Shown here: positions 31,571 through 44,409 of the stretch, one piece after another
Layout of the letters: each line of letters opens with the position of its first letter
Numbering within the stretch: the first letter of the stretch is position 1
DNA from: Spirochaeta lutea
GTDB taxonomy: Bacteria; Spirochaetota; Spirochaetia; DSM-27196; Salinispiraceae
Assembly (NCBI RefSeq): GCF_000758165.1
Contig: NZ_JNUP01000064.1
Span: forward strand, 62,001 to 126,000
Length of the DNA: 64,000 nucleotides
Direction of reading: 5' to 3'
Translations under genes and position numbers: made by a program
Notes under the pieces: model-generated
What the model was told of the DNA's origin: nothing
Seen by the model: only the letters and a program-made list of their open reading frames with translations
Database searches by the model: none

Positions 31571-32818
31571 ATGGGCTTTGAAGTATTATTTTTTTTAATC
31601 TTTGCAGGGGGCTGGGTCATGGGTCGTTTGGCCGAGAGATTCCGGTTGCCCGGGGTTTTGGGTATGACGATCTGGGGGATTGTCCTGGCCTTAATTCCCA
31701 GCCTGTTAGCCGGGGGGTCGGCTGACATGGGGGCGGCGGCACCCTCGGTCGGCTCCGGAAGCGGATTCTGGCCGTCGGGATTCTGGGAAACTGCTCCGTT
31801 TTTAAAATCCTTGGCTTTGGTGGTGATTCTCCTGCGTGCCGGCCTGGGAATCAGCAAGAGCGACCTTTCCCGGGCCGGAACAGCAGCCCTGCTGATGGCC
31901 TTTATTCCCTGCCTATTTGAGGGGGCCGTACTCACCCTTCTCTTTCACGGTCTCATGGGATTTCCCTGGATGGTAGCGGGGCTAACCGCCTTTATGTTGG
32001 CTGCGGTGAGCCCCGCTGTAGTAGTTCCATCCATGCTCGAGCTTCAGGACCGGGGATTGGGTAGACAAAATGGTGTGATTACTACGGTATTAGCCGGAGC
32101 CTCGGTGGATGATGTGGTGGTGATTACCCTGTTTACCCTGTTTTTGAACCTGGCTGTCAGCCCGGAACAGACCCGAATCGGATTAACCCTGGTTAGCATT
32201 CCCCTTTCCCTGCTGGGGGGGATCGCCCTTGGGGCGGTAATCGGATTGGTGCTTGCCTGGTGGTTCCGAAGTCACCATGCCTCCATTCGAGCTACGGAGA
32301 AGGCTCTGCTGCTCCTGGCTTCCTCGGTTTTCCTCCTGCAGGTAGGGGACTGGGTTCATCTCGCTGCCCTGCTGGGGGTGATGACCATCGGGTTTGTCCT
32401 TCTCGAACGGGCCGAACCCCAGGCTAGAGAACTAGCTGGGAAACTGGGTAAGGTCTGGGTGCCTGCCCAGATTGCATTGTTTGTGATAATCGGTTTATCC
32501 ATAGATGTGCAGACAGCCTTCGAGGTTGGACCGGTAGCCCTGCTCATCATACTTACAGGCCTTCTTGCCCGGTCGGTCGGAGTAGTATTTGCAACCCTCC
32601 CCTCATCCATGAACTGGAAGGAGCGGCTATTCTGCGTCATCGCCTATACGCCCAAGGCCACCGTACAGGCGGCACTGGGCGGAGCTGCCTTATCCGCTGG
32701 ACTACCCCAGGGCAAGATCATTCTGGCAGTGGCGGTGCTGGCGATTGTTATTACGGCACCCCTGGGGCTTATTGGCATCCGCGGATCAGCAAAACGGCTA
32801 TTGGCTTCCGAGTTATGA
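31571..32818 (+). CDS. Cation/proton antiporter-like membrane protein
   Basis: 415 residues, about 12 helices. The sequence follows the NhaP/KefC-type (CPA) sodium/proton antiporter pattern: RLAERFRLPGVLGMTIWGIV at the start, LAAVSPAVVVPSML in an unwound helix, and LAGASVDDVVVITLFTLF, where the two aspartates are the presumed ion-binding pair. No C-terminal RCK/TrkA domain. GGAGG precedes the ATG. Expected role: sodium or pH homeostasis. Confidence 0.82.
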   Translation: MGFEVLFFLIFAGGWVMGRLAERFRLPGVLGMTIWGIVLALIPSLLAGGSADMGAAAPSVGSGSGFWPSGFWETAPFLKSLALVVILLRAGLGISKSDLSRAGTAALLMAFIPCLFEGAVLTLLFHGLMGFPWMVAGLTAFMLAAVSPAVVVPSMLELQDRGLGRQNGVITTVLAGASVDDVVVITLFTLFLNLAVSPEQTRIGLTLVSIPLSLLGGIALGAVIGLVLAWWFRSHHASIRATEKALLLLASSVFLLQVGDWVHLAALLGVMTIGFVLLERAEPQARELAGKLGKVWVPAQIALFVIIGLSIDVQTAFEVGPVALLIILTGLLARSVGVVFATLPSSMNWKERLFCVIAYTPKATVQAALGGAALSAGLPQGKIILAVAVLAIVITAPLGLIGIRGSAKRLLASEL

Positions 32819-33403
32819 CTCCCGGATCTTCCTTTCCATGGAGTGTTGGAGGATATGGTAGCAGAAAAACCCTACTCCCACCCCCAAGACCTTATCAACC
32901 ACATTAATCAGAACCCGAGCGATGAATGCCGAAGATCCGATGGACTGACCGGCCACAACCAAGGCGCGTACCAAGGAATCCACGGGCTCTCCCGTGGTCC
33001 CGCCCATGAATACTGTAACAATAACCGTCCCAGCCAAGGCATTCGCCAGGGCGACTGCAATGAGAACCACCAGGGCATCCAACAGACTGTTAAAATGTCC
33101 GTTCCGAACAAAGAGATGTACAATGACGGCGGTGAGCATGTTCACCAACGCGAAGGGGTACAAAAACCCGGGAAATCCAGCGATGACCTCAAAAAACAAG
33201 TTTGAGAGAACCCCAACGGTTAGTCCCGGCCAGAGACCGAATAATACCGTAGCAATAATGGTGAAATTAGAATCTAAAAAGACCGGGAGCATGAGCACTC
33301 GGTTGAGTAAAAAAAAGAGCCCGTTCATCAATACGGCACCTACAATACCAACACCGACCACAACCCTGCTCATAGGAGGGTCTATAAGTTTATGAATTTC
33401 CAT
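32813..33403 (-). CDS. ECF S-component-like membrane protein
   Basis: 196 residues with five or six hydrophobic helices (VVVGVGIVGAVLMNGLFFLL, IIATVLFGLWPGLTVGVLSN). Layout resembles substrate-binding S components of energy-coupling factor transporters, which import vitamins; the substrate is not readable, and a riboflavin type cannot be claimed. Its stop overlaps the convergent antiporter gene by 6 nt. Clear Shine-Dalgarno: AGAGGCAG region just before the ATG. Confidence 0.6.
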   Translation of the reverse strand: MEIHKLIDPPMSRVVVGVGIVGAVLMNGLFFLLNRVLMLPVFLDSNFTIIATVLFGLWPGLTVGVLSNLFFEVIAGFPGFLYPFALVNMLTAVIVHLFVRNGHFNSLLDALVVLIAVALANALAGTVIVTVFMGGTTGEPVDSLVRALVVAGQSIGSSAFIARVLINVVDKVLGVGVGFFCYHILQHSMERKIRES

Positions 33404-37550: not shown

Positions 37551-37586
37551 GCCCCCTATTCCCCCCCCTATTCCCCCCCTGTTCCC
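37551..37586. repeat. C-rich low-complexity tract
   Basis: Three imperfect repeats of a C-run followed by TATT or TGTT, between the lipoprotein stop and the polyprenyl synthase stop. On the complementary strand this is a run of G-tracts. Confidence 0.6.
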
Positions 37587-37637: not shown

Positions 37638-38870
37638 TCAGTAGCGCCGGGATGCCAACAGGGTATTCAGGTCTACCAAGGTAGTGCGTAGCCCCTCATG
37701 GCCGCTGCTCGGGCCGTCCTGGAAAACCCGGTCGATCTCCGCCTCGGCCCGCACCATGTATGTATGAGCCTCGTTATGGGCTGCAACAAAACCCCCGGCT
37801 GTTTCTATCTCTTCCAGGATTTCTGAGAACGCGTTTTCATCCCCGGATTTAAACCTACGTATCCCCTGGATCAACCGGACTCGCTCGTTCTTTTGGGATG
37901 ATTTTAATGCCTCGATAACCGGCAGGGTTATTTGTCCGTCCCGGAGATCCTGTCCAAGGGGTTTGCCAAAGCGCTTGGGGTCACCCTTAAAGTCAAGGAT
38001 ATCGTCCTGTATCTGGAAGGCAAGCCCCAGGTAGTACCCCGCCCGGCGGAGCATCTGCGCCCGTGAGCCCTCAGCACCCATTTCCCTAGCGCCGACATGG
38101 AAGGCCAGGCTGAACAGCAGAGCAGTTTTACCGGTTATAACCCGCACATACCGCCTCCTGCTGGGATTCTGAAGCAAGGTAAAAAAACGCTCCCGGTCTT
38201 CAGCCTGAAAAAACTCGCTGCGACACATCACCCGCACCATACTGGAGAGCAGCTGCCCGGTCTGGGGCTCTGCACCATGACTCACCAGGGCGAAGGTAAG
38301 GCTTAACAGCAGATCTCCCAGAAGAACCGCCTGGCTTGCACCAATCTGCTTCCACACCGCCGGCAATCCCCGGCGCTGGGTTGATCCGTCAATCACATCA
38401 TCGTGGACCAGGGTGGCAAGATGTAATAGCTCTAGGGATGCTGCGAGAAGATAGATCCGCCGGGGAAGTCCGCCCGGGAAGGCCGGCTGATTTTTCCACT
38501 CGAGAATTTCCTGGTGTTCCTTGGCAGAAACCGTCCATCCGCTGCGTTTCAGTCTGGTCAGAAACCCATGATCGTGCCTGAGGATCCTGGACAATTCCGC
38601 GGTACCCGGAGCACCCGATTTCTGAGAGGGGTAGCCCGGCGGATACACCTCCGGACCTGACCCCTCTGTTCGCGCACCGAGAATGACCAGCAGGGGCCGC
38701 AGAAGTTTACCCCGGGCCGCTGAGAACCCTCGAAGGACCCGGGCGACCTCGGGGGCCTGTCGGGCCTCTTCATCCAGGAGGTAGTCAAGAATGGACTGTA
38801 CATATGAAAGTTCAGCCTGGATCCACGGCTGTTTACACAGAGAATCCAGGCTGGTAATAGGTTTACTCAT
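37638..38870 (-). CDS. Polyprenyl diphosphate synthase with insertion
   Basis: 410 residues, against about 320-330 for most family members. Both aspartate-rich motifs are present: HDDVIDGSTQRRG (first) and FQIQDDILDFKGD (second), with GKLLRPLLVILGA early. Elongates allylic diphosphates with isopentenyl diphosphate, normally to the quinone side chain or undecaprenyl carrier. The extra length is mostly one insertion at about residues 68-138, between GKLLRPLLVILGA and the helix before the first motif. It starts 13 nt after the NADH dehydrogenase gene, which suggests a quinone product. Confidence 0.88.
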   Translation of the reverse strand: MSKPITSLDSLCKQPWIQAELSYVQSILDYLLDEEARQAPEVARVLRGFSAARGKLLRPLLVILGARTEGSGPEVYPPGYPSQKSGAPGTAELSRILRHDHGFLTRLKRSGWTVSAKEHQEILEWKNQPAFPGGLPRRIYLLAASLELLHLATLVHDDVIDGSTQRRGLPAVWKQIGASQAVLLGDLLLSLTFALVSHGAEPQTGQLLSSMVRVMCRSEFFQAEDRERFFTLLQNPSRRRYVRVITGKTALLFSLAFHVGAREMGAEGSRAQMLRRAGYYLGLAFQIQDDILDFKGDPKRFGKPLGQDLRDGQITLPVIEALKSSQKNERVRLIQGIRRFKSGDENAFSEILEEIETAGGFVAAHNEAHTYMVRAEAEIDRVFQDGPSSGHEGLRTTLVDLNTLLASRRY

Positions 38871-38883
38871 GCGGTGATGGTAG

Positions 38884-41100
38884 CTATTTACGCTTCTTTT
38901 TTACAATAGGTTCGCCATCGTAGAGGAAGGTCCGTTGAGCAAGTTTGGTGCTGTTCCAGCGATCCTTCAACCATGGCATAACCCAGTGATCAAGACCGGC
39001 CGCATGACCTGCTCCACCCATCATTACGATAGCAATGAAGATAAACCAGAGCTGGTTCCATGCGAACATCCCCGAGAGGGTAAAGACAACACACATCCCG
39101 ATGGACACAACAGCTGCTGGCCAGGTCAACAATCCCGCCATGAGGGCAAGGCCGATGGCAACCTCTGTTCCGACGATCATTACCTGGAAAAATTGGTAGG
39201 GCAGCAGGGCGAAAAGACCGTCCATGAAGGTTTCCCTGAACCAGGTTACCAGAGGAGAATTCCAAGCGAAGATCGGCGCTTCTAAATCCCAGCCCCAGGG
39301 CTCGAAACCACCGCTGGCAACATCCGCAACCGTGTCCGTTGCAGTATCCCAGGCTTCACTGGCGGCCGTCGTCGCATCCGCAGCTGCCGAGGAAACTGCG
39401 TCCCCAGCCTGGGCCGCTGCATCACCAGCTGCATCCCAGGCCTCGCTGGCAGCAGCCGTGGCATCGGCACCTGCGGTAGCCGTATCTGCGGCTTGTGCCA
39501 CAGCATCAGCACCCTCTTCCCAGGCTTCGCTGGCTGCGGCGGTTGCATCCGCCGCGGCAGTTGCTGTTCCCCCCGAGGCAGCTGCAGACTTAACCCCAGC
39601 CTGTGAAACCCCGGCACTGAACATCCAGCCTGACTTTGAACCAAGCTCAAAGTTAAACCAGCCCTCGCCGATTTTATTAACACCTTCGATGACCCACATC
39701 AGCCCAAGCCATAACCGGGCCGGCAGCGCCCAGTACGCGGGAATTTTTGCCGAAGCATGCCCGCCAAGAATCGAACGCTTATTTTTGATCTGGAAGAATT
39801 CCTCCTGGAGGTATCCCCAGCAGGCGTTAAAGCCGGCTAATCCCCAGAGGTAATGCAGGTTAATAAAGTGCTTCAACGCCATGGCGAAAAACCCGTAGAG
39901 GTTCATCCCCATAACAGAGGCAACACCGTACCGTCCTCCGATGGAAACCATGAATCCATGGTAGTTGGGCTTATAGGTCTTTTTATCTTGTTTACTGATC
40001 TCGGCAATGATGTTGTGGGCCGCCACTTCAGCACTCTGCAGGGCGTTTTCTACAATCTGGGGTACAACCTTTTCCTCATGGAGATACCAGATCATGTCCC
40101 CTGCGAGAAATACATTAGGGAAATCCACGGATTGCATATTATCGTTTACTAAGATACGGCCCCGTTCACCCACGATATCCCGGTCTTCCTCATCAAAGTG
40201 ACAGCCGGCCATACCATGAATACCCTCAGGTGTTGCAATAGAACAGGTATCATTGGAAACACGGCCCTTGGTCAAGCCGATCTTTGCGGTAAATTCCGAA
40301 CCCTGGATACCACAGGTCCATACGAAGGTGTCTGCATCGATGGTGCGTCCATCCTTGAGGGTGTAGGTACCTTCCCCGTCGCCCTTCACAATCGGTGCGT
40401 TTAACAGGATTTCTACACCGTGCTTCTCCATATAATTACGGGCTTTTCGCTGGGGTTTATCCGAGAGGATTGGGAGAATTCGATCCTGGGCCTCTATTAC
40501 CATAATCCGCACCTCATCCTTATCGATGTGGTACTTCCGGCACAGGGTCTCGGACCGTTCAATCAGTTCCCCGACCAGCTCAATTCCGGTGAACCCCGCC
40601 CCTGCGACCGCAAAGGTTAGGTGCTTACGCCGCCGCTGCTCGTTGGGCTCCTTGGCTGCTGCCCGGAACATCAGCTCGACATGTTCACGAATTCGGATGG
40701 CATCCTCCAGAGACCAGAGAGTAAAGCTGTTCTGCTGAATCCCCTCGATCCCGAAGAATTCCGGATGCCCCCCGGTGCTTAATACGAGATAATCGTAGTG
40801 ATACTCCGAATCCTCGGATTTTAAGACCTTGGTCTCAAAATCAATGCCCTCGATTTCATCGACAACCACCCTGACCCGGGTACCGCTGAAAATCCGTTTA
40901 AAGCTAACCTGAACCGCTTCAGGTTCGGTACGGTGCCCTGCTACCTCATGCAGTTCTGTCATGAGGGTGTGGTAGGGGTTCCGGTCAATGAGAGTTATCT
41001 CAACATCCTTATCCTTACGGTATTTCTTGTTGAGGATTTTTGCAGATTCTATTCCTGCGTATCCTCCCCCAAGAATGACTATGCGCGTTTTGGTACTCAT
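38884..41100 (-). CDS. Type II NADH dehydrogenase fused to a DoxX-like membrane domain
   Basis: 738 residues. Residues 1-400 are an NDH-2 flavoprotein: FAD-binding RIVILGGGYAGIESAKIL, NAD-binding FAVAGAGFTGIELVGEL, and FPNVFLAGDM near the end. Residues of about 455-490 (WALPARLWLGLMWVIEGVNK) and 605-710 form a DoxX/DoxD-like four-helix membrane domain. Between its first and second helices is an alanine-rich insert (about 510-595) of three repeats of 28-29 residues starting ADATAAASEAW. NDH-2 passes electrons from NADH to quinone without pumping; DoxX-type domains also interact with quinones, so the fusion may channel electrons within the membrane. AGGAGAG precedes the ATG. Confidence 0.88.
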   Translation of the reverse strand: MSTKTRIVILGGGYAGIESAKILNKKYRKDKDVEITLIDRNPYHTLMTELHEVAGHRTEPEAVQVSFKRIFSGTRVRVVVDEIEGIDFETKVLKSEDSEYHYDYLVLSTGGHPEFFGIEGIQQNSFTLWSLEDAIRIREHVELMFRAAAKEPNEQRRRKHLTFAVAGAGFTGIELVGELIERSETLCRKYHIDKDEVRIMVIEAQDRILPILSDKPQRKARNYMEKHGVEILLNAPIVKGDGEGTYTLKDGRTIDADTFVWTCGIQGSEFTAKIGLTKGRVSNDTCSIATPEGIHGMAGCHFDEEDRDIVGERGRILVNDNMQSVDFPNVFLAGDMIWYLHEEKVVPQIVENALQSAEVAAHNIIAEISKQDKKTYKPNYHGFMVSIGGRYGVASVMGMNLYGFFAMALKHFINLHYLWGLAGFNACWGYLQEEFFQIKNKRSILGGHASAKIPAYWALPARLWLGLMWVIEGVNKIGEGWFNFELGSKSGWMFSAGVSQAGVKSAAASGGTATAAADATAAASEAWEEGADAVAQAADTATAGADATAAASEAWDAAGDAAAQAGDAVSSAAADATTAASEAWDTATDTVADVASGGFEPWGWDLEAPIFAWNSPLVTWFRETFMDGLFALLPYQFFQVMIVGTEVAIGLALMAGLLTWPAAVVSIGMCVVFTLSGMFAWNQLWFIFIAIVMMGGAGHAAGLDHWVMPWLKDRWNSTKLAQRTFLYDGEPIVKKKRK

Positions 41101-41130
41101 TATCTCTCCTTCTACCTGGTAATCCAGAGA

Positions 41131-41158
41131 TTTATTGTCTTTTTATTACAAGTATGAT
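41131..41158 (+). promoter_or_regulatory. Candidate apbE promoter
   Basis: TTTATT (41131-41136), 16-nt spacer, TATGAT (41153-41158), with a predicted start about 6 nt before the apbE ATG. Weak -35. Confidence 0.35.
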
Positions 41159-41170
41159 TATCTGTGGATC

Positions 41171-42220
41171 ATGAAACGAATCAAACCCACAGGTATTGTA
41201 CTACCGATTATATTCTTTGTGGCCGTCTATCTTACCGGCTGCACACAAAATGCCGCTCCGACCTCCCGAACCAGCCTAGACTGGCTGGGAACAACCATCA
41301 CTATTACGGTCTATGACCGCGTTAATTCCAACACCATGGATGCGGTGTTCTCACGAATTGAAGACATTCATACAAAAATGAGCCTCCAATTGCCGACCAG
41401 CGAGATCTCCAGGATAAATGCCGCCGCCGGAGATTCCCCGGTTTCGGTATCGCCGGACACCTACTATGTGATCCAAAGGGCTATGGAGATCGCCGAAGCC
41501 TCCCAGGGAGCCTTTGATCCGACCATCGGGCCCCTGGTAAGTCTCTGGGACATTACCGGTACCCCGTACCTACCAACCCAGGCTGAACTTGATGAACTCA
41601 TTCCCTTGGTAAACTACCGGTTGGTTGAACTCAGCCCGGAAAACCGCTCGGTGTATCTACCCCTTCAGGGTATGAAACTTGACCTGGGTGCAATAGCCAA
41701 GGGCTATGCTGCAGATGAATCCGCCTCCATCCTCCGAGATGCAGGAGTTGAACACGCTATTCTGGATCTCGGGGGTAACATTGTAGTCATGGGGAATAAA
41801 CCCGACGACTCACCGTGGCGCGTAGGCATTCAAAACCCCTTCTCTCCCAGAGGATCTCATCTGGCCATCTATGCTGCCAAGAATCAGACCCTGGTCAGTT
41901 CCGGTATGTACGAACGGTTTTTCATCCAGGATGGGATCCGGTACCATCACATCCTCGATCCTTCCACAGGGTTTCCCGCGGAAGCCGGTATCGCCGGTGT
42001 TACCATTATCAGCGACTCATCAATCCTTGCCGATGCTCTTTCAACTGCATCCTTTGTTCTCGGGGTAGAGAAGGGTATGAACCTTATTTCCCGTTACCCG
42101 GGTGTTGAAGCAATTTTTATTACATACGGTCAGGAAATTATCACCAGTAAATCAATGAATAATCAGCTCAATTATACAGACGAGGACTTTTCTAACACCA
42201 CCTATTCCGGTACGCGGTAA
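41171..42220 (+). CDS. apbE: FAD:protein FMN transferase (ApbE), lipoprotein
   Basis: About 349 residues. Lipobox AVYLTGC anchors it to a membrane outside the cytoplasm. ApbE motifs: FDPTIGPLVSLW, LDLGAIAKGYAAD, ILDLGGNIVVMG, HHILDPSTGFPA and the metal-binding end DALSTASFVLG. It attaches FMN covalently to threonine in exported proteins; the two-domain FMN-binding lipoprotein encoded next door is the obvious substrate. Start 41171 yields a proper lipoprotein signal; a frame start at 41135 adds 12 residues. Confidence 0.94.
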   Translation: MKRIKPTGIVLPIIFFVAVYLTGCTQNAAPTSRTSLDWLGTTITITVYDRVNSNTMDAVFSRIEDIHTKMSLQLPTSEISRINAAAGDSPVSVSPDTYYVIQRAMEIAEASQGAFDPTIGPLVSLWDITGTPYLPTQAELDELIPLVNYRLVELSPENRSVYLPLQGMKLDLGAIAKGYAADESASILRDAGVEHAILDLGGNIVVMGNKPDDSPWRVGIQNPFSPRGSHLAIYAAKNQTLVSSGMYERFFIQDGIRYHHILDPSTGFPAEAGIAGVTIISDSSILADALSTASFVLGVEKGMNLISRYPGVEAIFITYGQEIITSKSMNNQLNYTDEDFSNTTYSGTR

Positions 42221-42242
42221 CCTCCCCGACCCTTAATTAACT

Positions 42243-42285
42243 GCTGCTGCTCTCCCGAAGGAGAACAGCAGCTACCCCGAAGGGT
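42243..42285. terminator. Tandem hairpins between convergent apbE and FMN-lipoprotein genes
   Basis: A 13-bp stem with one mismatch (42243-42255 with 42260-42272) and then ACCC-CGAA-GGGT (42274-42285); both loops are CGAA. Only short T-runs adjoin, so termination is probable, not certain. Confidence 0.55.
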
Positions 42286-43038
42286 TTATCGCATCTCTCG
42301 GACCTTCTGGACCAAACCGGCGAAGTTATTGTAGGCACCGGTTGCTCCGGTAATTACATCGGCCTCACTGACACTCTGATTCGCTACCAGGGCGTCCGCA
42401 TAGGCTTTATACACCTCTGCAGGATTCTGTCCCCAGCGCTCGGCATATGCAGCATCCTCAGACTTCCGATAGTTGATGGTTCCATCCTCAGCCTTTTTTA
42501 CCTCATCGTAGGCAACTTCAGCAATCTTATCGTTGCGATAGGTTACTTCCAAATGGGCAATGTATCCCCGGGAATCCGGCTCAGTCTCTACTACGTAGGT
42601 ATCGTTCATGGGAAGAACAGCGGTAGTTGTATCGCCGGCTTTTGCCTTGGCCAGTGCAGCCTGTGCCAGGGCATTGAAGTTTTCAGTCGAGTGGGTAGCA
42701 CCGGCAATAACATCGACAGGAGCGCTTTGCTTCTCTACCAGAGCCTTTTCGAGAGCCACGGTAAATTGCTCAGGATTGGTGGTGCCGGTAATTTGGAGCA
42801 TGCGCTGATTATATCCATCGTCTTCACTCTTCCGAGCTCCGGCTTTATTCACATAATCAAAATCTACCTCGGTGATTTTTCCACCCTCGGTAACAGCAAC
42901 CTCAACATAGGGCTTCCATCCGTGGCTGTCCAGTGCACTGTACTCAGCACGGTAGGTTACAGCCTCTTCTTGGCCGCAGCCGACGAACAGCAGCAGAGCA
43001 GCCGCAACAATAAATAGGGCGATCATGGATTTTCTCAT
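42286..43038 (-). CDS. Two-domain FMN-binding lipoprotein (PplA-like)
   Basis: 250 residues from ATG 43038, which has AGGAGG upstream; a longer frame has no start signal. Lipobox LLFVGC puts the anchor at Cys21. Two FMN_bind domains follow (about 28-130 and 146-250), each ending in a flavinylation-type motif: DVIAGATHS at 109-117 (Thr115) and DVITGATGA at 227-235 (Thr233). The first deviates at the residue before GAT (Ala instead of Ser/Thr). Duplicate flavin domains on a lipid anchor resemble Listeria PplA, which hands electrons to outside acceptors. Faces apbE convergently. Confidence 0.88.
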   Translation of the reverse strand: MRKSMIALFIVAAALLLFVGCGQEEAVTYRAEYSALDSHGWKPYVEVAVTEGGKITEVDFDYVNKAGARKSEDDGYNQRMLQITGTTNPEQFTVALEKALVEKQSAPVDVIAGATHSTENFNALAQAALAKAKAGDTTTAVLPMNDTYVVETEPDSRGYIAHLEVTYRNDKIAEVAYDEVKKAEDGTINYRKSEDAAYAERWGQNPAEVYKAYADALVANQSVSEADVITGATGAYNNFAGLVQKVREMR

Positions 43039-43147
43039 AATCTTCCTCCTTTTGTGATTTCGGTATGGTTTCGGAATAATTCCTGTTAACCAGTGTAATG
43101 TGAGAATAAAAAAGTGAAAAGTAGTTTTTGCCTTTTTCTGATATGAA

Positions 43148-43208
43148 TCACAATAAAAAAACAATCTGTTCACAATAAATGCCGGATTATTCCTTTTTTA
43201 TTGTGAAA
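43148..43208. promoter_or_regulatory. Three copies of TCACAATAAA, possible regulator sites
   Basis: TCACAATAAA at 43148 and 43170 are direct repeats 22 bp apart (two helical turns); the third copy is inverted, and TTCACAATAAA (43169-43179) pairs with TTTATTGTGAA (43198-43208). They lie about 110-170 bp upstream of the FMN-lipoprotein gene and just beyond the end of the NusG-II gene, in AT-rich DNA. Confidence 0.5.
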
Positions 43209-43236
43209 TAGTAACTTTATTTCGTGTTTTTATGTG

Positions 43237-43653
43237 TTAATAAGATAATAAATCAGCTTCTTCTGTACTTTCTGTTGTATTATTTGCAGAATCTGCCTCT
43301 ACCCTGACAAAAAGCTTGTTGGGCAAACAGGCGGTCCATTCATTCTCATGCTCCAGCCAGCCGGCAGCAACACAAACCTGATCCCTGCAGGGGGAAGAAA
43401 GTACCCGGACACGGTGGTCATGGATTTCCACCACCGTTTCTCCAATGGGCCCGGTAAATACGAACTCCCCCGGCTGCTCTAAAGAGTAGAGGTAATCCCC
43501 GGTTTCAGCCTGAACATGCACCTGCCCTCCCTGATTCGAAGAAGAATATGCCGCCGCCGTAACCCCGAGAAACACGGCCAGGGACACTAAAAAGACAACC
43601 CCGTCCAGAAGGGTAATGGTTATACCAAGTCTTCGTATCGTGAACGCCTTCAC
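43237..43653 (-). CDS. NusG domain II-containing membrane-anchored protein
   Basis: 138 residues. One N-terminal membrane helix (LLDGVVFLVSLAVFLGVTAA) and an outside NusG-II domain with family residues SPCRDQVCVAAGW, where two cysteines could form a disulphide. Proteins of this kind usually sit beside FMN-binding and ApbE genes; here it is the last gene of the thyX-NYN unit, 3 nt after the NYN gene and 200 bp upstream of the FMN lipoprotein on the same strand. Exact role unknown; an accessory in flavin-based electron transfer is inferred. Confidence 0.8.
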   Translation of the reverse strand: MKAFTIRRLGITITLLDGVVFLVSLAVFLGVTAAAYSSSNQGGQVHVQAETGDYLYSLEQPGEFVFTGPIGETVVEIHDHRVRVLSSPCRDQVCVAAGWLEHENEWTACLPNKLFVRVEADSANNTTESTEEADLLSY

Positions 43654-43656
43654 CCC

Positions 43657-44409
43657 CTAGGACCTCCGCCTTCTGCTATCCCGAACATAGATGGTTTTCG
43701 ACAGCCCCGAGGGACTAATCCGTGCATCCACATCAAAGAGCCCGATTGCCCTGATTAGTTCTCCGAGCTTTTGATAGCCGTAGTTCCGGGTGTCAAAGTC
43801 CGGAAACTTATTGGTAATCTTTTGTCCCAGGGTTCCCAGGTTGGCCCAGCCGTCATCATCCGCAGAGTCTTCGATGGCATTTCGAATGCTGTTCACCAGC
43901 CAGCTGTCCTGGCGCAGATCGTTATTGGAGGCTTTTCGCGGTTTCGGCGTCGTCTCCTTTTCCGTATCCGTCCTCAGGTTCTCGGTATATATAAAACGGT
44001 CGCAGGAGCCGACGAAGGATTTTGGGGTCTTTTTCTCCCCAAACCCGTAAACGATCATACCTCCTTCTCTCAGGCGGGCTGCTAAGCGGGTAAAATCGCT
44101 ATCCGAGCTGACGATACAAAAACCATCCAGGGTATTGGTGTATAACAGATCCATGGCATCAATGATCAGCGCTGAATCCGTGGAGTTCTTTCCCGTGGTG
44201 TAACTAAATTGCTGGATGGGTTGAATCCCGTACTGTAGGAGGGTTTCCTTCCAGCCCTTGAGGTTTGGACTCGTCCAGTCGCCGTAAATCCGCTTTACGC
44301 TGGCAACGCCAAGATTTGCCACCTCTTCCAGTAGCCCCTCAATGATTGCCGAAGGGGCATTATCGGCATCAATGAGCACCGCAAGGCGGCGTTGATTCTC
44401 TGAACTCAT
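43657..44409 (-). CDS. NYN-domain nuclease with OST-HTH/LOTUS-like domain
   Basis: 250 residues. Residues 8-145 are a LabA-like NYN/PIN fold with the expected aspartates: AVLIDADNAPS, KNSTDSALIIDAMDLL and FCIVSSDSDFTRLA. Residues of about 172-245 (LVNSIRNAIEDSADDDGWAN, FDTRNYGYQKLGELIRAIG) fit the OST-HTH/LOTUS RNA-binding module. Likely an RNA-directed nuclease; target unknown. The ATG overlaps thyX by 4 nt. Confidence 0.88.
   Translation of the reverse strand: MSSENQRRLAVLIDADNAPSAIIEGLLEEVANLGVASVKRIYGDWTSPNLKGWKETLLQYGIQPIQQFSYTTGKNSTDSALIIDAMDLLYTNTLDGFCIVSSDSDFTRLAARLREGGMIVYGFGEKKTPKSFVGSCDRFIYTENLRTDTEKETTPKPRKASNNDLRQDSWLVNSIRNAIEDSADDDGWANLGTLGQKITNKFPDFDTRNYGYQKLGELIRAIGLFDVDARISPSGLSKTIYVRDSRRRRS

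Follow-up and report, generated by a model that had tools for sequence, protein, structure and literature searches.

A predicted flavin-based extracellular electron transfer module in the diderm spirochaete Spirochaeta lutea

Background

Experimental knowledge of flavin-based extracellular electron transfer (FLEET) comes from single-membrane bacteria, whose membrane-bound lipoprotein PplA faces outside; the extracellular electron transfer (EET) locus of Listeria monocytogenes, reportedly described by Light et al. in 2018, is said to consist of dmkA, fmnA, fmnB, pplA, ndh2, eetA, eetB and dmkB. Described here is a cluster of five related genes from Spirochaeta lutea, located in a 64,000 nt stretch (the window) of contig C61 of a draft genome (G000; 3.5 Mb, 69 contigs, 96% complete). 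Judged from its sequence, the cluster is homologous to FLEET, as a dispersed variant in a two-membrane (diderm) host.

Lactiplantibacillus plantarum uses exogenous 1,4-dihydroxy-2-naphthoic acid (DHNA) for its FLEET (PMC10746273), and genetic experiments in that species support the order Ndh2 to EetA to PplA (PMC9888254). Homologues of EetB are known outside Firmicutes (PMC9973259). Meheust et al. 2021 (PMC8238504) apply the term 'EET system' to flavinylation gene clusters that contain an NADH dehydrogenase (K03885) bearing a transmembrane helix. A single sentence of Vasieva 2019 (PMC7074142) mentions a cad/apbE/NDH-2/menA/HepS module for a 'Spirochaete' representative, and cad(pplA)-apbE pairs are stated there to occur only where rnf is missing; a literature search that did not cover the supplementary tables of the 2021 survey found no paper on FLEET in spirochaetes.

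The locus and its Listeria counterparts

All five proteins match their FLEET counterparts in direct comparison with Listeria, with identities of 42% for Ndh2 (core), 45% for FmnB, 32% for PplA, 34% for EetA and 33% for DmkB. A preliminary description of this DNA had named the five genes and likened them to the Listeria locus; the open reading frames (ORFs) lie exactly where it placed them, its domain calls hold in Pfam, the likeness is upheld and the spirochaete host that it proposed is borne out. It had also counted the divergent layout as a difference from Listeria, which was mistaken, as the Listeria locus too is divergent, pplA(-)/ndh2(+). The Listeria reference proteins come from L. monocytogenes records matched by an NDH-2 search, which are deposited as plasmids yet bear a ribosomal operon and the EET locus; in the reference record (L069:4356-5314) dmkA is unannotated and broken into two ORFs, perhaps through sequencing error or strain mutation.

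The cluster contains an ApbE-type flavin transferase (FmnB), a PplA lipoprotein with a lipobox, two FMN_bind domains and two GAT flavinylation motifs (the first atypical), an EetA (NusG_II) and an Ndh2 with a fused membrane domain. The quinone branch is predicted to be formed by the DmkB-like synthase in the cluster and a DmkA-like UbiA elsewhere on the contig, and an EetB/FmnA flavin exporter is not found in the window cluster. The locus fits the 'EET system' of PMC8238504, with an NDH-2 (assigned by domain) that has membrane helices and adjoins ApbE and FMN_bind genes. No rnf or nqr gene occurs at the locus, which does not fall among the Rnf/Nqr clusters, where RnfB or NqrF stands in the flavinylation cluster. 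The features are as follows (FMN, flavin mononucleotide; FAD, flavin adenine dinucleotide; pLDDT, predicted local distance difference test).

37638..38870, minus strand: DmkB-like long-chain polyprenyl diphosphate synthase, 410 aa, both DDxxD motifs (PF00348 polyprenyl_synt, 182 bits)
38884..41100, minus strand: Ndh2, type II NADH dehydrogenase (NDH-2) with C-terminal DoxX-type membrane domain, 738 aa (Pyr_redox_2 127 bits, DoxX 27 bits)
39304..39585, minus strand: Ala-rich repetitive loop joining membrane helix 1 of Ndh2 to helices 2-4 (aa 506-599); low pLDDT, probably extracytosolic
41101..41170, no strand: short intergenic region from which ndh2(-) and apbE(+) diverge, seen in the sequence
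41135..42220, plus strand: ApbE/FmnB-type FAD:protein FMN transferase, a lipoprotein; likely start ATG 41171 (ApbE 314 bits)
42286..43038, minus strand: PplA-like lipoprotein, 250 aa when read from ATG 43038, bearing lipobox FVGC and two FMN_bind domains (FMN_bind 43 bits)
42694..42696, minus strand: predicted FMN-Thr 115 in PplA domain 1, motif DVIAGAT; less certain, the usual S/T missing
42340..42342, minus strand: predicted FMN-Thr 233 in PplA domain 2, textbook motif DVITGAT
43237..43653, minus strand: EetA-type NusG_II protein with a single membrane helix at the N terminus and a C-x4-C...CLP motif (PF07009, 75 bits)
43657..44409, minus strand: NYN-LOTUS (OST-HTH) protein (Pfam), constant syntenic neighbour, not considered part of the redox system

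With an upstream GTG start the PplA ORF spans 42286-43173(-); ATG 43038 is the likely start. Promoter and terminator scans of the locus gave no signal above shuffled sequence. The CHAP and polyprenyl synthase genes converge, and a short tandem repeat, CCCCCTATTCCC, lies between them at window positions 37552-37586.

Ndh2 and the polyprenyl synthase

In Ndh2 the NDH-2 core is followed by one helix, then an Ala-rich loop (52-173 residues) and more helices, an architecture that is constant in 82 relatives; residues Q639, G650, G656, W685, G696, G698, G702 and D704 of the further helices are invariant among them. The AlphaFold model (pLDDT 83.7) is confident for the core and helices, with the loop disordered, and in a Foldseek search only the NDH-2 core matches solved structures (4nwz, TMt 0.94). 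Listeria Ndh2 gives a separate match to the S. lutea protein in the C-terminal membrane part, beyond the core, and itself matches DoxX, and DoxD weakly; the loop is Ala-rich in Listeria and Enterococcus also. The preliminary description had taken the NDH-2 fusion for a difference from Listeria, which is incorrect because the Ndh2 of Listeria and Enterococcus has the same DoxX-type domain and Ala-rich loop; a fusion unique to this genome is ruled out on the same ground. DoxX/DoxD-type domains are known from thiosulfate:quinone oxidoreductase, and therefore the DoxX-type domain of Ndh2 is likely to have a role in quinone handling or transmembrane electron transfer.

In a tree made by a quick method, with long branches and six Bacillota rows, spirochaetal Ndh2 forms one clade separate from Bacillota (99 by the Shimodaira-Hasegawa-like approximate likelihood ratio test, SH-aLRT), a split that argues against recent gene transfer from Bacillota. 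The local polyprenyl synthase matches Listeria DmkB at 125-127 bits; the other polyprenyl synthase of the genome reaches 53-57 bits.

ApbE, PplA and EetA

The best solved match of ApbE is Listeria FmnB (7esa, 301 bits), and the Ftp protein of Treponema pallidum scores 187 bits. ApbE is present in a single copy. Contigs C46 and C42 bear full sets of rnf and nqr genes, RnfG and NqrC included, and as the genome has only one ApbE, the window ApbE must serve Rnf and Nqr as well.

PplA displays 32% identity to Listeria PplA over 276 aa, and the NCBIfam PplA model NF041941 covers both of its domains (123.6 bits). Of the GAT flavinylation motifs that had been noted in both domains, the second is a perfect DVITGAT and the first is DVIAGAT, not [S/T]GAT; the numbering Thr115 and Thr233 is correct when counted from ATG 43038, not from the upstream GTG. 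The PplA homologues of sister family f3 (L037, L038, L039, L040, L041, L042 and L043) have lost the first motif and keep the second, so that PplA may work with a single flavin in that family. The A in place of S/T in domain 1, the loss of that motif in family f3 and the loss of the PplA gene in locus L072 would fit a locus in decay or put to another use, the remnant of a FLEET system that is being lost in the order; this is considered very improbable, as all frames are open, the lipoboxes and the DVITGAT, DDxxD and FAD/NADH motifs are intact, and PplA of G003, the nearest family member, retains both [S/T]GAT motifs.

Listeria EetA belongs to PF07009 (NusG_II), and the EetA cysteine motif is kept in every EetA found, those of Listeria and Enterococcus among them. 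The S. lutea genome has four FMN_bind genes, none of them fused to a fumarate- or urocanate-type reductase; one membrane-anchored FMN_bind protein of 131 aa and a single domain, encoded on contig C49 (L055:8464-8859), is a possible relay partner or acceptor.

Quinone and flavin export genes outside the cluster

The presence or absence of partner genes was judged by family searches of the draft genome. The only UbiA belongs to the 1,4-dihydroxy-2-naphthoate prenyltransferase type, with all matches below curated cut-offs; it lies on the locus contig, ~53 kb away, and shows 31% identity to the N-terminal half of Listeria DmkA, and its orthologues (42-47%) flank NDH2 and the polyprenyl synthase (PPS) in L121, L129 (Alkalispirochaeta alkalica) and L135. 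A 436 aa EetB homologue is encoded on contig C3 (L057:6703-8013; PF07456, 113 bits). The preliminary description had counted the lack of a DmkA-like prenyltransferase and of an obvious flavin importer at the locus as differences from Listeria; a lack of DmkA and of a flavin transporter is rejected, as these two genes are candidates for the missing parts elsewhere in the genome. Its separate quinone also needs correction, as a polyprenyl synthase cannot make one alone and MenD (72 bits, cut-off 244), MenB (56, cut-off 343) and MqnA/D (no match) are not found in the 96%-complete draft. Because these are absent while DmkA- and DmkB-like enzymes are present, the DHNA head-group is probably scavenged, by analogy with L. 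plantarum; at 96% completeness the absence is strong evidence, short of proof. A family search of the genome found no cytochrome bd oxidase. In another locus (L107:5560-7867) UbiA and UbiD genes stand just upstream of NDH2-PPS, and the quinone route may differ among spirochaete lineages.

EetB lies within the cluster in G063, L139, L141, L144 and L146. The C-terminal half of S. lutea EetB aligns with a separate gene after EetB in G063, for which Pfam gives CbiQ, the T component of energy-coupling factor transporters (ECF-T), sub-threshold only; the half itself has no Pfam support for ECF-T identity. The fold model of a relative's EetB fusion (L088) resembles RibU S-components, and ECF-T chains more weakly, with E values of 0.06-1 that are not decisive. 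Such EetB/ECF-T-like fusions occur at L057:6703-8013, L088:3104-4390 and L131:2608-3894, and other spirochaetes have two separate genes. An ECF-type S component at window positions 32813-33403, ~4 kb from the locus, was considered as exporter and rejected; it belongs to the CD3073 family (89 bits, below cut-off), not PF07456, and has no ECF-A/T neighbours.

Conservation across Spirochaetota

Relatives were surveyed in two ways, by a whole-genome search of 100 relatives and through 368 loci from named genomes, of which the best 80 were kept (76 Spirochaetota and 4 Bacillota); linkage counts refer to the 40 of these loci with ~19 kb or more of sequence. In the genome search fused NDH2 occurs in 47/100 relatives, and ApbE adjoins it in 13 of the 42 genomes holding both, from 10 families, where 0.03 would be expected; this adjacency is beyond chance. 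The apbE/ndh2 pair is divergent in 12 genomes, with match ends 185-348 bp apart. Genes linked to NDH2 at the 40 loci are PPS (39), EetA (12), PplA (10), ApbE (7) and EetB (6), and PPS is directly behind NDH2 in 39/40. NDH2-PPS is the invariant unit; the flavin genes come and go, with 11-14 changes on the Ndh2 tree. The five-gene co-occurrence that the preliminary description put forward as a check is partial, with NDH2-PPS near-invariant, ApbE recurrent and PplA patchy (10/40). The NDH2-PPS core is found in the cultured species Alkalispirochaeta alkalica, Breznakiella homolactica, Rectinema subterraneum and Sphaerochaeta halotolerans, and the set is complete, EetB and an ECF-T-like gene among its members, in G063 (L044) and in the Sphaerochaetaceae-type loci L139, L141 and L146.

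EetA adjoins NDH2 without PplA and ApbE in L072, L116, L118, L120 and L122; because it is retained beside NDH2 where these are gone, this suggests that EetA is a nearer partner of Ndh2 than PplA. In tree-based co-variation ApbE with EetA is borderline (median p 0.06) and PplA with EetA is not significant. The PplA profile misses some flavin lipoproteins; two SGAT-motif lipoproteins of no Pfam family beside NDH2 (L074:6865-7764, L117:7778-8566) are possibly divergent flavinylated PplA replacements.

Several of these observations weigh against the locus being an electron export module. RnfG and NqrC are likely clients of ApbE, whose presence alone is then no proof of EET; the NF041941 score of PplA is below the curated cut-off of 325, and the first flavinylation motif is lost in order-mates (family f3, L037-L043). 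Most spirochaetal NDH2-PPS loci lack PplA, its co-occurrence with NDH2 is weak genome by genome (Fisher p 0.026; p 0.13 for strict two-domain PplA), and the close relatives L072 and L120 keep EetA-NDH2-PPS with neither PplA nor ApbE there. No outer-membrane conduit was found, and no search was aimed at one. A rival reading is of two unrelated neighbouring units, NDH2-PPS acting as a general NADH:demethylmenaquinone oxidoreductase, ApbE and EetA serving Rnf/Nqr flavinylation and PplA being a bystander; the invariance of NDH2-PPS alone in most spirochaetes, the dependence of RnfG and NqrC on the sole ApbE and the patchy linkage of PplA are all in its favour. This is held to be unlikely: ApbE adjoins NDH2, not rnf or nqr, in 10 families, EetA remains beside NDH2 where ApbE is gone, and the same gene set is the proven EET system of Listeria-type bacteria.

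The most constant neighbour of EetA in the order is the NYN-LOTUS protein (63-77% identity), along with ThyX; it is seen in the window and at L036-L043, L072, L076, L077, L095 and L099. An MscS-type channel gene lies between NYN-LOTUS and ThyX in three family f3 loci. A link between these neighbours and electron transfer is not obvious.

Proposed electron route

On the observed gene identities, homology, architecture, synteny and partner-gene presence or absence, a spirochaetal FLEET-type module is considered probable; the lack of a bd oxidase in the family search and the L. plantarum experiments also speak for it. Flavinylation, electron route, direction and acceptor are predicted as follows. 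Ndh2 would oxidise NADH at the inner membrane and pass electrons through its DoxX-type domain and demethylmenaquinone to the extracytosolic side. The demethylmenaquinone would be made by the local DmkB-like synthase and the DmkA-like prenyltransferase encoded elsewhere, from a DHNA head-group probably taken up from neighbours. EetA and the FMN-bearing PplA would form the extracytosolic relay, with ApbE/FmnB loading FMN from FAD, whose probable exporter is the EetB/ECF-T-like fusion encoded on another contig. Given the outer membrane of spirochaetes, PplA may be periplasmic; for the same reason electrons would arrive first in the periplasm, to be carried out by soluble flavins or quinones, by small ferric chelates or by an outer-membrane partner. 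The most likely route runs from NADH to Ndh2, with or without demethylmenaquinone, then to EetA and to flavinylated PplA in the periplasm.

A relay confined to the periplasm, feeding a periplasmic reductase or maintenance function (a flavinylated acceptor, methionine or disulfide repair) with nothing crossing the outer membrane, is a serious alternative, judged somewhat short of an even chance. The diderm host and a PplA topology not fixed by sequence are consistent with it, the 131-aa FMN_bind protein from contig C49 is a candidate partner, and PplA-like proteins of relatives stand in varied neighbourhoods; against it, the cluster is without a terminal reductase and the genome's four FMN_bind genes offer no fused fumarate- or urocanate-type reductase.

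Returning to the FLEET-type module, export of electrons by way of flavins is probably not confined to single-membrane bacteria and extends to a phylum in which it has seemingly never been tested. A phylum-wide form, in which the DoxX domain and a scavenged DHNA-derived quinone deliver electrons to flavinylated lipoproteins and an outer-membrane step, as cytochrome-free EET of fermentative spirochaetes dependent on quinone cross-feeding, is more speculative and rather doubtful. A conserved version of FLEET in diderm spirochaetes, cultured ones included, raises the question of how the relay ends behind the outer membrane, and it predicts disposal of electrons onto flavins, quinones, iron or electrodes by some fermentative spirochaetes, which would rely on neighbours for DHNA.

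Comparison with known systems

The module mentioned by Vasieva 2019 (PMC7074142) shares its gene set with the S. lutea locus; however, S. lutea is an exception to the rule given there, as rnf and nqr are both present. Compared with the EetB-type FAD exporter (PF07456; PMC9973259), the S. lutea genome has an EetB homologue, and EetB adjoins EetA in G063 and Sphaerochaetaceae-type relatives, whereas the S. lutea protein carries a fused ECF-T-like domain and is encoded outside the window cluster. As in L. plantarum (PMC10746273, PMC9888254), DmkA and DmkB occur without a full menaquinone pathway, implying exogenous DHNA, although in S. lutea the case rests on gene absence in a 96%-complete draft.

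Homologues of Listeria Ndh2 (with its membrane-domain fusion), FmnB, PplA, EetA and DmkB are clustered in S. lutea, and those of EetB and DmkA are present in the genome. In contrast to Listeria the host is diderm, ndh2 is divergent from apbE rather than pplA, EetB is fused to an ECF-T-like domain outside the cluster, the DmkA-like gene is ~53 kb off, the single ApbE is shared with Rnf and Nqr, and DHNA synthesis genes are not found in the draft genome. The NDH-2 membrane fusion is not special to S. lutea, and the conserved core of these loci is the NDH2-DmkB pair, not PplA.

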